From Xiphydria camelus (Eukaryota; Arthropoda; Insecta; Hymenoptera; Xiphydriidae), in assembly GCA_963678675.1 (NCBI GenBank), contig OY783194.1, positions 35,814,278 through 35,878,277 of the forward strand: a DNA stretch of 64,000 nucleotides. Direction: 5' to 3'. Shown piece after piece: positions 7,813-51,365 of this stretch. The notes beneath the pieces are model-generated. The model worked only from the letters and a program-made list of their open reading frames with translations, was not told the origin of the DNA and searched no databases. Every line of letters starts with the position of its first letter. Within the stretch, counting starts at the first letter, position 1. A program made the translations under genes and the position numbers.

Positions 7813-8480
7813 TTTTCATCATCAGCACAGACTACGCGGTCAATCTCAAAATGTCCTCCGGTCCGAGCTGAAGAGGACTGTGGCTTTGAAAAACTAGCAA
7901 AAAGAAGCTTCGCAATTTCGCGAAAATGAGTATCCAAGCGCGTGCAATAAAGCCAGAGCAGCAGCGGCAGCGACGGAAGACCCGCAGAAGCGGAACGTTA
8001 ATGTCCCTTTCTGTTTACGGCACGACGAGCTTCAGCTTCTAGCTTCAAAGCTGCATACACGCTACCGTCGCCGCTGCTCATCTGGATTAGAGGGAGGCGT
8101 GAGGGGGAAAAGGAGGTTGTAAACCCTTAATATAGAAACTTGGAGGCGTAATCCACCGTCGACCTTCAAAGCTCGGTATCGTGATTAAAAAAAGAAGGAG
8201 AAAAGCTCTCACGGTAATTTCGATTATTAAGACAAAGTCGATAGACCACCGCGCAGTGGAACGTGCAGTCTTTACTGCGTAGCAAAATCTACTGTTTGTG
8301 CATGGAGAGAAATGTGTGGAAGCTGTTCCTGTACCAGTAAATCAGCCGTGTATTGTGCTTTTACTGTGATGTTATTTGAGTGCACGTATAGCAATGAATA
8401 ATACTATAAGCTTGCGTTGAGATTGAGAAATATTGTAACAATTGCTATGCAGAAATGAAATTATACTCCACGGCACACAC
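7813..8480. other. No gene recognised
   Basis: Unique-looking sequence between two MITEs. No splice-bounded open frame, RNA gene or clear regulatory module was identified. Confidence 0.4.
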
Positions 8481-42079: not shown

Positions 42080-42380
42080 GGGACCGATAAAAATTATATT
42101 CAACTTAATAAATAAAACGTCCGTTATTAATTAATCACGTCGTTGCCACGACGTCCAAAAATTATATATGCATGATATAATATCGATAGGATAAGTTAGA
42201 TGAACATAGAATTTGAAACGAATTTAAATTCTGAAAGTAGTACCTTACTTACGAGAATGACATTCGTCAAAAGCCATCTAACGGTACGTTGCAAAAGTAA
42301 AGATGAATTAGGTTTATTGACCTGGACGATAAAAACAAAATCATTGCATTTCATATGATGCATGTTTACGTCCATACATA
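42080..42380. repeat. Dispersed repeat with CACGTCGTTGCCACGACG hairpin (copy 1)
   Basis: It contains TTAATCACGTCGTTGCCACG followed by ACGTCCAAAAATTATA. About 110 bp on come AAACGAATTTAAATTCTGAA and AAAAGCCATCTAACGGTACG. The same ordered landmarks recur at 47,690 and 52,385 in the same orientation. The CGTCG-TTGC-CGACG stem is a natural hairpin. The element type is unknown and the ends are not defined. Confidence 0.75.
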
Positions 42381-44132
42381 CATATTAAGACTCTAAATAA
42401 TGACGTGAACAATTTTACAATGAAACACTGCTACATAAATAATTTTCACGACTTCAATCAATTATAGCCTATTTATAACTTATTTCCTTTGATAACAATT
42501 TCGAATAATAATGGGTATTCGTGGAGAATAACTGCGATTCGCGAAGCAGTGATTCTGTCTTATAAGAATGAAGTATGAGTCGAGTGAATGTTTTCGAAGG
42601 CTTCGAGCGCGTTTCCCTTTCAGGTGATATAATGAATGTTAAGGAATTTTTAAATAGCGTATAACTACCGCTATAGGTATATAGTTGGTGCGTGAAGAGC
42701 TGTCACTCGCTTTTAATGGCGCTAACGACATTTCATTCGCCTCTACGCGCCGCGAAAATTCGCGAAAAACTGTCGATTTCGGGTAACTCACCTGCCGCGC
42801 AGTGGCGCGTGCTTTTTGAGCAGCTGACTCTGGCAGTAGCGCTATCTCGTGGAAATTCGCCGGTTCGCGTTTCTCCCGCTTTGCCGTATACAATTTTCGG
42901 ATTCGACGGACACATGAACTGGGAACACACTTTCTCGAATCTGTGCGGGCAGTATGCGTGCCTTCGAAATTTCAGCCGTATGCGCAACAGCTATCTCGAC
43001 CAATTTTCGGAGCGGGCGAGAAAATCTGTCGTCGATTTCGCGAAAGAACTCCGGGATCCGAACGACTAACATAACCACCGCAAGGAGACTGGCGTTTGTT
43101 CCCTCCTTCTCCGGACTCTCCTACTCTGATCCAATCCCTTCCGAACGAACGAAGCGGCTGGATCCCTACCTAACCTAATCTAGCCTAACATCATGAGAGC
43201 TCCTACACGCCTGTTCGAAAAGCGTCGAATAGACGTCTGCTTTCGGATAACGAAACATTGGTTGCGTTCAGCAGATCGAGCATAAACCGCTACCGCTCAG
43301 TACTGTTGCGTGCCGGGCTGGTCTTCTTGGTCCGTTTGTAGGGGGCAGGTCCGTGCCCGTGGAGTGCTGAACCACTCTGCTCGGAAAGAGCGGGATCGGG
43401 AGATGAAGTTTTATTGCAGGTGGAGAAATGAAAACTCTTAATCCAAGAATTAGGTGATCACCAATGAATTATATTTTAACACATAGTTGGAATATAATTT
43501 GTCGTTATAAATCGGTATCTGAGTGCACCTCGAGCGGCAAAGTGCATCCTTTTAAATCAAAAGTCCCCGCTTCTCGGTAACAACGAGGAACCAATCAAAT
43601 ACTCAGCGCTAATGTGGGGACCCAATCTGATACTCGACGCTAGTCGTAGTCAAGGACTCTACTCCCACTTTCTTCGTCTACGCACAATGATCTAATCCAC
43701 GCTCCACGCGTCCACGTGCGAAGAAAGTACCTACGCATCGACCCTGACTCTGGCGTGCACAATCCCACGCACTCGAAAGAAAATATGCCCTCATCGACCG
43801 TGGGTCTACCGCGCACGAACTCCCGCAATCCGAAGCGCGTATCGATAACAAATCTTATGCGCGCACGCCTACGTGACTCAAAGAAAGGAGAACTGTTCTT
43901 GCTAGGTAAATTAACTACGACCTATCGGTCCGCGAAAGGGGATACCATATTTACAAACGGAGCTCGCAGCGGCCCGCGACTCAGATCCCCTGTCCATCAC
44001 GCAATAAAGGTGTTTATAATCTCGCGAATAGAAACCACGGTGGCCTGCGACTTATTTAACTTATCACGCAGTCTTCGACGTTCTCGTTCTTTCTCTCTAT
44101 TACAATCCATCTATACCTTACTTGCTACTTCT
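42381..44132. other. No supported gene
   Basis: A 126-codon plus frame at 42,692-43,069 has no recognised domain, and the minus strand is also open. A minus-strand GTGAGT at about 42,790 could end a non-coding exon. CCTAACCTAATCTAGCCTAA at about 43,168 resembles degenerate insect telomere-like repeats but is isolated. Confidence 0.4.
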
Positions 44133-44589
44133 TAATGTAGAACGAATTATCGAACGTCAACGTCGCGGTGGAATTTCTACTGTCCGGCGATTGCATTGCG
44201 ATATATCGTTTCCGTAAGATCTCTTGAAGGTCGTTGCAAGAGCTATTTTCTCGTTTGGCTCGCAAAGGTCTCCCACCCGGCGATCTAAAAAACACGTTTA
44301 AAAGCCCACTGTGAACAAAATCAATCTTTCGCAGCCACGACATTCTGACAATGCGAAACTCCTCTTTGTTCCTGGCGAATAAAAAGTTTACCGCGATAAA
44401 ATTGTTTAATCGTACCTTGTGACGAGTTTCATTTTGACTTTGTTGATGTTTTTCAGTATGTCGCCCATTGATTTCTGGGAGATCAGTGGCGGTTTATGCC
44501 GATCGATGAACTTGTAGCCCTGTAAACTAGCTCTCCTCGCGATGTTAGGAGTCGTTGGAGGTTGCAGAGGTGGCGGCATATAATAATGA
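44125..44589 (-). pseudogene. Captured MTFR-like gene 3' exons, copy A
   Basis: Minus-strand exons at 44,416-44,589 and 44,125-44,284 flank a 131-bp intron (GTACGA..TTTTTTAG). They encode the same peptide as copy B (..SMGDILKNINKVKMKLVTR then SPGGRPLRAK..). Two differences matter. The stop codon TAG has become TAC, extending the protein to ..DNSFYIKK. The acceptor is TAG rather than CAG but still valid. No frameshift is seen within these exons. With neither promoter nor 5' exons of the parent gene it is a fragment, called a pseudogene; a fusion transcript from the Harbinger side cannot be excluded. Confidence 0.6.
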
Positions 44590-45247
44590 CTAATTAAAAG
44601 TTTTAACATTATGATAAAAACGATTACCTACAGTAATTAGCATTGATCCCGAAGCAAGAAATCTTAAAGTCGGCAATAATTTTGTTGCTGGCTGAATTGC
44701 TGCATTTCTTGGCGACCTCGAAGCAATGCGATGTCGTATTTGTCCCAATAATCTCTGACAGGTTTGTTTTTCCAAACGAAATCAAGTGAAGAATTCTACA
44801 ACCATTGTATTCTTCGAAATAGTCAACTCTGGAATAGTTTTGTATTAGATATTGGTTATAAATTAGTAGGTATAGGTATCCTTTATTTACTTACCGGGCA
44901 CGTATTTTCCTAGGATTTCTCATTCTTTGTAAGACGTCAATTTCATCATCAGATGATGATTTGACAACTGCCACATCAATCAACTCTATTTCACAACTAA
45001 TAACAATTATTATGATTCTGTCACGGTTGTGATTCTGTCACGGAATAATAAAGACGCAAACAAAAAGTTAGGTTATCCCGAGGATAGCTAGCTTATCCAG
45101 CGCTGAAACTGCCGGATAAGCTATCCCTGCATTTATTCCAAAGTTTATCCTATTCCAGACTTATACCATCGTGGTAAAACGCTTGCGTACAGGTTATTCT
45201 CAGTATAGCGCTATACGGCGTTTATACCGTGTTGGTAAAACCGGCCC
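44133..45247 (-). mobile_element. Truncated copy A of a gene-carrying PIF/Harbinger unit
   Basis: This 1.1-kb segment is nearly identical (about seven differences seen) to 46,560-47,670. Its right end is a clear terminus, TTGGTAAAACCGGCCC, followed by TAA. Its left end is not a terminus: similarity to the complete copy stops at about 44,133, just past the stop codon of the captured gene, so the 3' UTR and second inverted end are missing. Reading on the minus strand it contains TIR, Harbinger exon 1, a Harbinger exon 2 fragment, then two host-type exons. TAA/TTA target sites and GG-starting TIRs are characteristic of PIF/Harbinger. Confidence 0.8.
44640..45003 (-). pseudogene. HARBI1-type transposase N-terminal fragment, copy A
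   Basis: The exon-1-like piece (about 44,895-45,003, minus) encodes EIELIDVAVVKSSSDDEIDV..RKIRAR and ends at a GTAAGT donor. The exon-2-like piece (44,640-44,815) encodes FRLEKQTCQRLLGQIRHRIA and ATKLLPTLRFLASGSMLITV. The second part matches the region before the first catalytic Asp in HARBI1-family transposases (pattern TKLL.TLRF.A.GS). A TGA interrupts before FRLEKQT, where copy B has TGC, and YFEEYNGC is in a different frame. The DDE catalytic core is absent, so it is inactive. Confidence 0.7.
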
Positions 45248-45594
45248 TAAGGGCCAGTTTTACCAAAGCCAAGTTATACCTAGAATAAGTATACCGAGGA
45301 TAAATTTATACTCTTCTTTATACCTGGTATAAAGCGCAGGCGTTTTACCAGCTCCAAGTTTGCCTGGGATAACTATTCCAGGTATAAGCGTTGGCCATCT
45401 AAAATTATTTTTAGGTTGGTAGTAAGAAGTACGTACTGCGCATGACATTTGGTCGTTTTGACAGCTGTTCCGGCGCGATAAATGAAATTCGGAGTTGTTA
45501 TTCTCAGTATAACCTAACTTTTTGTTTTTGACGTCTTTATTCTTTCATGATATAATCATAACCTGATCGTTGTGGTAAATTGTTATTAATTTTG

Positions 45595-45689
45595 AAATAG
45601 TTGATTGATGTACCAGTTTTTTAATCATCATCTGATGATGACATTGACGTATTACCAAGAATCAGAAATCCAAAGAAAATACGTGCCCG
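45595..45689 (+). pseudogene. HARBI1-type exon 1, inverted left arm of element B
   Basis: The plus strand reads GATGATGACATTGACGTATT..AGAAATCCAAAGAAAATACG and ends GTGCCCG before a GTAAAT donor, giving SSSDDDIDVLPRIRNPKKIR. It corresponds to the minus-strand exon 1 copies at 44.9 and 47.4 kb but is clearly diverged and has a stop upstream of the serine/aspartate stretch. It shows that both arms of the element are Harbinger 5' ends. Confidence 0.7.
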
Positions 45690-45734
45690 GTAAATAAAAG
45701 ATATCTATAACAATATATTTATATTTTCGTAACA

Positions 45735-46561
45735 ATAACTTTTATTTTCGAGTCGTCGATAAAAGCATCAGGTACAAAACACGTCCAAACATTCGATATC
45801 TCACCAACAAGAATGTGTTCAGTCTCAAAAAACTATAAGGGTCGTCACACAATAATAGTAATTACAACGTAAAATTGCACCATTTGATCCAAATCTCGTA
45901 TCGGACAAAATATATTCTAAAATCTATAAACTTTTAAATCGCTACAACTTAAGATTTATCACGCGGTGACATTACTCTGAGATTACATAGAGCGGTACAA
46001 TGTTATCGTTTTTTTAAGTATACGCGACCCTATCTAAAAAGTATACAAAGAGCGTTGTACGACTTGATGTCTAATGCCGAGGTATCTTACAAAAGTGTAT
46101 CAATGCAAATCTAAAATTTTTTCATATTCTACATCGTACGACGGATGTATCACTTCTGCTCCTGAAAACTGCAATCACGCGAATTGAAGAAAGGTATAAT
46201 GTCTACCTAGATAAATTTAAATGTTACTTATACAAGACAATGCAATGGTAGATGACTTCTTTGGTTGATATTATTGGATACCGTTGAGATTCTCGCGATT
46301 AGAGACCCGCGTGCGTCAATTTTAAATTTAAACTTGCATTTTCTGAGTAAAAGAGTGAAGAGAGAAAACAAAATTTTCCCGACGTTTCTATGAGCTTCTA
46401 TCCTCCTATTAAAAAAGAACTATAATCTAAAATGTGTCGTGCGAAATTACCTCGCAGAGAAAGACTCATTTATAAAAGAAGGCTACAATAGCCGTTCCTC
46501 GGAGCACCGTCCGACGCGATTGCTGCGACCCAGAGAACTTGAGTATCATCGAGTTCTTAAT
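45735..46561 (-). other. Probable 3' UTR of the captured host exons
   Basis: Downstream (minus) of the TAG at 46,562 the sequence is AT-rich and non-coding for about 820 bp. It reaches an AATAAA on the minus strand (TTTATT at 45,741-45,746), close to where Harbinger left-arm similarity begins. This is what a captured natural 3' UTR with its poly(A) signal would look like. The host/transposon breakpoint is inferred at about 45,700-45,735. Confidence 0.45.
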
Positions 46562-47014
46562 CTAGAACGAATTATCGAACGTCAACGTCGCGGTGGAATT
46601 TCTACTGTCCGGCGATTGCATTGCGATATATCGTTTCCGTAAGATCTCTTGAAGGTCGTTGCAAGAGCTATTTTCTCGTTTGGCTCGCAAAGGTCTCCCA
46701 CCCGGCGATCTGAAAAACACGTTTAAAAGCCCACTGTGAACAAAATCAATCTTTCGCAGCCACGACATTCTGACAATGCGAAACTCCTCTTTGTTCCTGG
46801 CGAATAAAAAGTTTACCGCGATAAAATTGTTTAATCGTACCTTGTGACGAGTTTCATTTTGACTTTGTTGATGTTTTTCAGTATGTCGCCCATTGATTTC
46901 TGGGAGATCAGTGGCGGTTTATGCCGATCGATGAACTTGTAGCCCTGTAAACTAGCTCTCCTCGCGATGTTAGGAGTCGTTGGAGGTTGCTGAGGTGGCG
47001 GCATATAATAATGA
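46562..47014 (-). CDS. Captured MTFR-like C-terminal exons inside element B
   Basis: Minus-strand exon 46,841-47,014 encodes ..PPTTPNIARRASLQGYKFID..SMGDILKNINKVKMKLVTR and ends at GTACGA. Exon 46,562-46,709 follows a TTTTTCAG acceptor and encodes SPGGRPLRAK, DLQEILRKRYIAMQSP and ..TLTFDNSF before TAG. The phase (2 then 1) joins the exons with Arg at the junction. The pattern of an ILK.hN.VK hydrophobic/basic segment, SPGG.P and a basic helix ending in a dibasic pair recalls the C-terminus of mitochondrial fission regulator (MTFR) proteins; PRR11-like is an alternative. The N-terminal exons are absent. It is a captured gene fragment with intact splice sites and could be expressed from the Harbinger exon-1 promoter. 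Confidence 0.5.
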
Positions 47015-47056
47015 CTAATTAAAAGTTTTAACATTATGATAAAAACGATTACCTAC

Positions 47057-47425
47057 AGTAATTAGCATTGATCCCGAAGCAAGAAATCTTAAAGTCGGCA
47101 ATAATTTTGTTGCTGGCTGAATTGCTGCATTTCTTGGCGACCTCGAAGCAATGCGATGTCGTATTTGTCCCAATAATCTCTGACAGGTTTGTTTTTCCAA
47201 ACGAAAGCAAGTGAAGAATTCTACAACCATTGTATTCTTCGAAATAGTCAACTCTGGAATAGTTTTGTATTAGATATTGGTTATAAATTAGTAGGTATAG
47301 GTATCCTTTATTTACTTACCGGGCACGTATTTTCCTAGGATTTCTCATTCTTTGTAAGACGTCAATTTCATCATCAGATGATGATTTGACAACTGGCACA
47401 TCAATCAACTCTATTTCACAACTAA
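47057..47425 (-). pseudogene. HARBI1-type transposase N-terminal fragment, copy B
   Basis: Exon 1 (about 47,318-47,425) gives ..VKSSSDDEIDVLQRMRNPRK and a GTAAGT donor. The exon-2-like part (47,057-47,240) gives VVEFFTCFRLEKQTCQRLLG..PATKLLPTLRFLASGSMLITV. Here TGC replaces the TGA of copy A, so the frame VVEFF..LITV is open; YFEEYNGC remains out of frame with it, implying one frameshift. Transposase similarity stops at about 47,050, where host-type intron sequence and the captured exons begin. No DDE residues are present. Confidence 0.7.
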
Positions 47426-47689
47426 TAACAATTATTATGATTCTGTCACGGTTGTGATTCTGTCACGGAATAATAGACGCAAACAAAAAGTTAGGTTATC
47501 CCGAGGATAGCTAGCTTATCCAGCGCTGAAACTGCCGGATAAGCTATCCCTGCATTTATTCCAAAGTTTATCCTATTCCAGACTTATACCATCGTGGTAA
47601 AACGCTTGCGTACAGGTTATTCTCAGTATAGCGCTATACGGCGTTTATACCGTGTTGGTAAAACCGGCCCTAAGTGACAAAAAAATAAA

Positions 47690-47990
47690 ACTCAATCTAA
47701 TGAATAAAATATCTGTTATTAATTAATCACGTCGTTGCCACGACGCCCAAAAATTATTTACGTTAAATAATATGGATATGATTGTAACTGACTGCTATTT
47801 TTAACTCTAACAAGTTAAATAAACGGAGCATTTGAAACGAATTTAAATTCTGAAAATAGTATCTTACTTTCGAGAATGACATTCGCCAAAAGCCATCTAA
47901 CGGTACGTTGCAAAAGTAAAGATGAATTAAGTTTATTGACCTCGACGATAAAAACAAAATCATTACATATCGTACGATGCATGTATACGT
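47690..47990. repeat. Dispersed repeat with CACGTCGTTGCCACGACG hairpin (copy 2)
   Basis: TTAATTAATCACGTCGTTGC..CACGACGCCC is followed by AAACGAATTTAAATTCTGAA and AAAAGCCATCTAACGGTACG, as at 42.1 kb and about 85-90% alike over the shared blocks by eye. Element B inserted at or just beside its left part. Confidence 0.75.
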
Positions 47991-47991
47991 A

Positions 47992-48090
47992 CACCCGTGC
48001 TCACGAATTCTGTCCCTGGTGACTTTTTAAAATGTTATTTTTAAACGTACTAACCAATGAACAATTAATTCTCATGCCCTCATTATCTAC
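47992..48090. mobile_element. Solo arm of the 59.7 kb MITE family
   Basis: TA precedes CACCCGTGCTCACGAATTCT, followed by GGTGACTTTTTAAAATGTTA and TACTAACCAATGAACAATTA, matching the left arm of the element at 59,748. No inverse right arm follows, so it is a truncated copy. Confidence 0.7.
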
Positions 48091-50160: not shown

Positions 50161-50192
50161 CGGAAAATGAACACGGTGTACGAAAGTAATTT

Positions 50193-51034
50193 CAGGGGAG
50201 CTATTCTCGACGCGTGGGAAATGCTTTTCGTGGACGAGATATTTTTCGTTAACGGATTTAAAGTTTCGTCGATCACTTTCGTTAACGATTCGAAAATTCC
50301 TTCCAAGATAGATCTCGTCAATGAAATTAATTTTCTCACACGAAAAATGTGTTTACATCCCTTAGCGACGTCTTCTTTTTAGAATCTCGTTTAATCACTT
50401 AGCAACGACCCGTCGCATCGGCCCACCGCCTCGGACAAATACCAAACCCATTCGTTGACGAAAACAGCGAGAACGACGAATGACACTTTCGTCAACGAAA
50501 AAAGTAATTTCGTTAGCGAAGGAGTTTCGCGCGTATGGGAAAACATTTCGCGTACAAAATTTCTCAACCAAAACGCAATTGCCCCTGGGGGGCAATTCTC
50601 GACACGTCAGAAACGATTTCGTGAACGGAATTATTATTTCGTTTGAGAAATTTTGTACACGGAATTTTTTCCCATACGAAACTCCTTCGTTAACGAAATT
50701 ACTTTTTTCGTTGACGAAATTGTCATTCGTCGTTCTCGCTGTTTTCGTCAACGAATGTTGTTTGGTATTTGTATGCCGGTGAATTGCATGACGAGGTGGT
50801 GGGCCGATGCGACGGGTCGTTGCTAAGTGATTAAACGAGATTCTAAAAAGAAGACGTCGCTATAAGGGATGTAAACACATTTTTCGTGTGAGAAAATTAA
50901 TTTCGTTGACGAGATCTATCTTGGAAGGGATATTCGAATCGTTAACGAAAGTGATCGACGAAATTTTACGTCCGTTAACAAAAAATATTTCGTCCACGAA
51001 AAGCATTTCCCACGCGTCGAGAATAGCACCCCTG
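50193..51034. mobile_element. 842-bp foldback element with full-length inverted arms
   Basis: CAGGGGAGCTATTCTCGACG at the left is mirrored by CGTCGAGAATAGCACCCCTG at the right. Inverse similarity continues through both arms (about 400 bp each) to a centre near 50,590-50,620 with TTGCCCCTGGGGGGCAATTC. The arms are filled with short dyads of the type TTTCGTTAACGAA / TTTCGTCAACGAA about every 20-40 bp. Both arms contain one open frame ([20 protein letters not shown]) on opposite strands, a consequence of the repeat. No obvious target duplication. It begins 33 bp past the last recognisable kinase codon. Confidence 0.85.
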
Positions 51035-51365
51035 AGCATGTTTCGCCAAGCAATCAGCTGTTCTCATGGCGACCACGTAAAACGCGCCATGCGCAGCTTA
51101 TTGTACTTTCGTACACCGGGACTTTCAAAAAATTATTATAAATTAACCGTGCATTTTGTCAAGTAGGTTCTTGCATCAATTTCACAGTAAATTTTCCCCG
51201 CTACAAATTGGTAGCTTCATTTTTTTGATCGAGTAAATCTAGGATGCCCAGGAAAAAGAGTATAAATTTGAATAGATTGCGGAACGCGCTTTCCTCCGTT
51301 AGTTGCACGCGTAATAAAGGAGCGTCGCGTAACGATCAGCTGATCGATTTAAGCCAATTTGAATT
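51035..51365. other. No gene recognised
   Basis: Unique-looking sequence between the foldback element and the hairpin. It shows no further protein kinase D similarity. Confidence 0.4.

Follow-up and report, generated by a model that had tools for sequence, protein, structure and literature searches.

The question raised by positions 45,251-47,670 of the window (the whole stretch of 64,000 nucleotides analysed here, from Xiphydria camelus) is how the 3' end of MTFR, a host gene for mitochondrial fission, came to lie between two inverted transposon ends. We report that this unit is very probably a non-autonomous Pack-type PIF/Harbinger element that carries a captured 3' part of MTFR and is moved in trans. 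Gene capture by cut-and-paste transposons has so far been described mostly in plants.

Boundaries and layout of the element

The unit spans 2,420 bp with TAA on both sides, and its terminal inverted repeats (TIRs) are 16 bp each with a single mismatch between the two ends. An earlier reading, made from the letters of the DNA (the sequence-only reading), had described a complete element of this length with TIRs and TAA duplications, two spliceable MTFR exons with their stop codon, and an AATAAA, all of which were located as claimed. The features are as follows (TSD, target-site duplication).

44129-45247, plus strand: truncated second copy of the element, same orientation, 99.4% identical, directly adjoining on the left
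45248-45250, no strand: left TAA TSD, seen in the sequence; common to the element and the truncated neighbour copy
45251-45266, plus strand: left TIR, GGGCCAGTTTTACCAA, seen in the sequence
45251-45723, plus strand: left Harbinger-type 5' end, inward-reading; inverted match to 47,282-47,509
within 45,499-45,723, plus strand: left exon-1-like stretch with an in-frame stop (TAA in the alignment)
45724-47002, minus strand: captured MTFR piece, matched to the parent by blastn in three segments (84-93%)
45724-46561, minus strand: captured MTFR 3' UTR, with AATAAA at 45,746-45,741
46474-46481, no strand: site of 82 missing bp (parent L050 8081-8162), kept in six older copies
46562-46709, minus strand: last exon of MTFR, captured together with its TAG stop
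46710-46840, minus strand: captured last MTFR intron (GT...AG), 131 nt (parent, 168 nt)
46841-47004, minus strand: 3' portion of coding exon 3 of MTFR, captured, ending at a GT donor
47003-47319, minus strand: Harbinger-type sequence of the right side, comprising intron 1, the beginning of a transposase-like exon 2 and a short stretch beside the junction
47320-47462, minus strand: exon 1 of the right Harbinger-type end, with an open frame and a GT donor at 47,319; 5' limit approximate
47655-47670, minus strand: right TIR, TTGGTAAAACCGGCCC on the plus strand and GGGCCGGTTTTACCAA on the minus strand
47671-47673, no strand: right TAA TSD, seen in the sequence

The inverted Harbinger-like ends (45,499-45,723 and 47,282-47,509) are 79% alike over about 230 bp, and since the left one has an in-frame TAA in the alignment they represent two diverged copies. 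The proposal of a plus- and a minus-strand copy of a Harbinger first exon thus stands as regards the inverted ends, while the name "Harbinger first exon" found no support from homology. On the right side, the transposase-like exon 2 begins at approximately 47,253 and runs downwards, and its frame is broken by one extra T. The transposase-like sequence of the element amounts to a broken N-terminal-like fragment. No Pfam model was matched by the 84-aa exon-2-like fragment, and protein searches with a 59-residue piece of it and with the 73-aa frame across the junction returned no protein. The open reading frames of this stretch include no long transposase frame.

The captured coding part comprises 104 codons including the stop, with no internal stop or frameshift in the window copy. 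The donor GT at 47,319 and the acceptor AG at 47,015 allow an in-frame join, and in the spliced frame the sole Met ahead of the cargo lies late in exon 1.

The parental MTFR gene and the captured piece

An MTFR family search of the genome of the window (357 Mb, 38 contigs) gave two matches, both belonging to a single gene on contig C29. Its four coding exons are separated by GT-AG introns, and its 231-aa product is covered end to end by hymenopteran MTFR proteins, the best being that of Cephus cinctus (82%), which points to a hymenopteran host. With this parental gene, which the sequence-only reading had proposed to look for, the last intron (131 nt in the element, 168 nt in the parent) and the 3' UTR could be compared. 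In blastn the element matched L050 7290-8943 of the parental locus in three segments of 84%, 90% and 93% identity. The cargo of approximately 1.28 kb corresponds to one contiguous piece of the parent, running from within exon 3 across the last intron and last exon into the 3' UTR, and is collinear with it apart from some small deletions and a later parental MITE that it lacks. The 3' limit of the cargo lies 17 nt past the AATAAA, and in the parent a GU-rich stretch follows right after. The captured peptide is best matched by the host's own MTFR (84/97), and the next best match, among 80 aligned database MTFRs, reaches 73/95.

A retrocopy or processed pseudogene was rejected as the origin of the piece, as the last intron is retained and the cargo terminates in an A run no longer than that of the parent. 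A blastn search with the element of 30 kb around the parental gene (C29:5,070,001-5,100,000, extending approximately 16.7 kb upstream of the matched gene and 11 kb beyond it) revealed no element ends.

The resident MTFR 3' UTR has a surplus at L050 7784-8005 (C29:5087784-5088005), which is a MITE-like repeat of palindromic structure, has 1,863 candidate places in the genome (40 scored) and contributes two AATAAA motifs to the parental 3' UTR. Reading this difference as a deletion in the element was rejected, since it is a palindromic genome-wide repeat that is absent in the captured copies compared; given this absence, it either entered the parent after the capture or was missing in the donor.

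Copies across the genome

The search for further copies suggested by the sequence-only reading was carried out with patterns, each with a reversed-pattern control that gave 0 matches. The right Harbinger/MTFR junction occurs 520 times (≤2 mismatches) and the left junction 333 times (≤3 mismatches), while the transposase-like fragment occurs 298 times in the form bearing the extra T (≤1 mismatch) and 123 times in the form lacking it (≤3 mismatches). That the two junctions are common to hundreds of copies suggests a single capture event.

These counts bear directly on the possibility that MTFR is resident in the window and that the transposon pieces were inserted later. The intact exons, intron and stop would fit a resident gene, and the sequence-only reading had named a sole genomic copy of the exons, with upstream exons beyond the element, as what would speak for one. 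However, the four-coding-exon MTFR is located elsewhere, the junction is present 520 times and the TSDs enclose the whole unit, which leaves a resident gene scarcely credible. With the parent elsewhere and the unit repeated, the data speak strongly for a TIR element that captured the 3' end of a host gene and carries it flanked by two inverted 5' ends.

Together with the window copy, 40 full-length copies from 39 fetched loci give a set of 41. The 40 others all start with GGGCCA and finish with CGGCCC, and identical 3-bp TTA/TAA duplications flank 38 of the 41, the exceptions being L009 and the pair L031/L032. The members of this pair (C20:11529587 and 11490309) have identical 15-base flanks, lie 39 kb apart in opposite orientation with unmatched TSDs, and are probably one insertion within an inverted duplication. 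The copies of exactly 2,420 bp (38, the window included) show 49 differences from the majority sequence, a mean of 1.29 each (0.05%), 32 of them private; as these near-identical copies were picked among the 40 best-scoring candidates (of 895), the value errs on the low side.

At six of 40 loci (the window, L020, L027, L040, L041 and L045) copies are nested in or adjoin another copy, a count that the choice of candidates may have shifted in favour of clusters. On contig C10 (18853918-18863902), five transposase-fragment matches in one orientation are spaced by 2.4-2.5 kb, likely a tandem array of the element.

Superfamily and source of the transposase

The putative assignment to PIF/Harbinger rests on the TIRs, the TSD and the target site. 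PIF elements have an extended palindromic target around TTA. Here we found a 3-bp TWA duplication, terminal inverted repeats and an extended palindromic target consensus, CACTTAGTG, derived from 38 sites; the base before the target is C in 25/38 and the base after it G in 22/38, but single sites are only partly symmetrical (20/38 at the first flanking base). The features of a Pack-TYPE element are likewise present, i.e., a non-autonomous unit with TIRs and TSD whose interior derives from a host gene present elsewhere.

The 19-base pattern of TIR plus TWA has 2,689 exact matches in the genome (control 0), and 20 TIR pairs spaced 111-143 bp apart were seen among the first 100 matches listed. These short elements of the same family share the 16-bp end beside TWA but, unlike the window element, are about 130 bp long and free of cargo; one with the same TIRs adjoins copy L023. 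This is most simply explained by a single TIR family that relies on a transposase encoded elsewhere. Such a transposase would recognise the TIRs and insert at sites like the consensus; the element's own ends would supply such sites, giving rise to tandem and nested copies, and the MTFR piece would be passenger DNA.

The genome is rich in open frames matching the Harbinger-type domain PF13359 (150 scored of 2,076 candidates), some of which occur in up to nine equal-scoring copies. We compared the 1.6-kb 5' sides of 20 of these (L063-L082, hand-picked from the 150 scored, mostly one per open-frame length) with the element in search of an autonomous partner; there was no DNA match at E 1e-4, and at the protein level two weak matches only (E about 0.6). 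The pattern lacking the extra T was also considered as a mark of such a partner and rejected, since it proved to tag older members of the captured family: L083, L084 and L085 (three read of the 123 matches) carry the MTFR piece.

Stages and drift of the cargo

In sequence, older copies stand between the parent and the window copy. Three forms of the junction, CTCTGCCACC (parent-like), CTCTGCAACC and CTCAGCAACC (window-like), account for 35, 46 and 19, respectively, of the first 100 of the 520 matches, counted by eye and all mismatch-free and from the first contigs. A tree built from the captured piece has the L045 fragment and L083 closest to the parent and the window copy in the youngest group. 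The 82 bp at parental positions 8081-8162 are kept in L027a, L040a, L041a, L083, L084 and L085 and are gone from the 2,420-bp copies; L020b already lacks them though the tree places it outside L027a, so that the loss was not a clean single step. L027c lacks a stretch neighbouring this segment. In the last stage nearly identical copies, that of the window among them, arose in a burst. This ordered series, from the donor gene via the oldest and intermediate copies to the fresh burst, makes a stepwise loss of constraint traceable.

Specifically, the coding changes from the parent to the node of the first wave were 14 synonymous and 3 non-synonymous, compared to 4 and 12 from this node to the window copy (Fisher p = 0.0016). 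The corresponding values are dN 0.013-0.015 and dS 0.16-0.23 before the node, and dN 0.053-0.057 and dS 0.051-0.059 after it, the node being built on three old copies (L083, L084 and the L045 fragment) with L085 and others excluded. Several of the later changes alter residues common to most of 14 hymenopteran MTFR sequences, and copy L085 has a stop codon within the cargo. In view of the shift towards non-synonymous changes and the hits on shared residues, the captured exons behave as passengers, and the cargo has evolved neutrally after the first wave.

These data weigh on whether an in-frame splice of Harbinger exon 1 to the C-terminal part of MTFR yields a protein under selection. The sequence-only reading had placed exon 1 so as to drive the captured exons, and the in-frame splice (GT 47,319 to AG 47,015) allows this in principle, though it does not speak for actual use, and the 104 captured codons read through in the window copy; the unconstrained drift after the first wave and the late Met speak against it. 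With dN equal to dS after the first wave, changes at several of the shared residues and a stop in the cargo of L085, we consider a selected protein very unlikely.

The parent-to-node dS is far above both the later neutral distance (approximately 0.05) and the early divergence of the intron (8/131) and the UTR (23/422), and such a value is not predicted by plain capture in the host's own lineage. It would be expected if capture had taken place in a related species, with later arrival of the element by horizontal transfer, as if the donor had diverged under constraint before the capture, and the mostly synonymous early changes (14:3) point the same way. On the other hand, the captured peptide is nearest to the host's own MTFR, the node peptide differs from it at only 3/101 residues and the intron and UTR divergence fit capture in the host lineage; in addition, two weak tests gave nothing, i.e., the junction frame has no protein elsewhere and two element patterns had no match in viral contigs. 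Taken together we regard horizontal transfer as unlikely. Methylated exon sites change faster in Hymenoptera, and the dS excess may be due to this, to a donor in a related species or to small numbers.

Route of capture

The two precise breakpoints allow routes of capture by the Pack-type element to be tested. Ranked first, at about even confidence, is a template switch into the MTFR gene while an excision gap was being repaired. Ranked second, and clearly more doubtful, is fusion of two neighbouring Harbinger insertions that flanked the MTFR piece in opposite orientation and then moved as a unit, which would be a sub-case of the Pack-type reading. Such a fusion would explain the two different, inverted 5' ends and follows a model described for Pack-TYPE elements (PMC8903248), but the inner parts of both Harbingers are absent, no remnant is seen in 30 kb at the parental locus and one insertion would have to sit in a coding exon. 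The third route, a rather remote one, involves an RNA template, where the gap was patched by reverse-transcribed, 5'-truncated MTFR pre-mRNA still holding the last intron; it is prompted by the limits of the cargo, one of which lies within an exon and the other 17 nt beyond the AATAAA, where cleavage is expected, while the presence of the last intron and an A run no longer than the parent's argue against it.

Relation to known gene-capturing transposons

Pack-MULEs and gene-carrying Helitrons are DNA transposons that capture and copy genes; they belong to other superfamilies, and their target-site duplications are different or lacking. The sequence-only reading had called capture by a Harbinger unusual, which is correct in part only, as there are precedents. 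Pack-PIF/Pack-TYPE elements of maize and rice demonstrate that Harbingers can take up gene pieces, and, as described in PMC8903248, these are likewise non-autonomous PIF/Harbinger elements with TIRs, a TSD and a piece of a host gene, present in tens of copies. The cargo given there for maize PIF elements is 163 and 58 bp, whereas the element of the window carries approximately 1.28 kb with an intron, a stop and an AATAAA between two inverted 5' ends and is present in hundreds of copies. Turmoil-1 of C. elegans is, according to PMC2572040, also an animal Harbinger with host exons and an intron; its pieces (205 bp and 131 bp) lie inside 760-bp ITRs in an element with its own transposase, and it is known as one complete copy and eight fragments. 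A review covers class II transduplication in plants, with Pack-TYPE elements. Among the titles and abstracts listed, with the subscription literature mostly outside their reach, none described an insect Harbinger that has captured a host gene. Gene uptake by a cut-and-paste element is thus known from plants and one worm, and the present element is a large animal example.

Hundreds of near-copies of the MTFR 3' end could mislead gene annotation and read mapping, and they raise the question of small-RNA effects on MTFR: the inward-facing 5' ends in these copies may give rise to sense and antisense RNA and thereby to small RNAs against the MTFR message.

Other repeats in the window

Left of the truncated copy (44129-45247) lies a repeat that, judged by eye, recurs in the sequence flanking copy L022. 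A dispersed repeat (47681-47993), 80% alike to 42089-42374, starts immediately to the right of the element. A large imperfect palindrome occupies 50192-51035, with an 86% match to its own reverse complement. Finally, 60214-60301 matches the right end of the element (84%) with an altered terminus, TTGTAAAACCCGCCC, and a stretch similar to it (89%) is present at L022 3451-3544.
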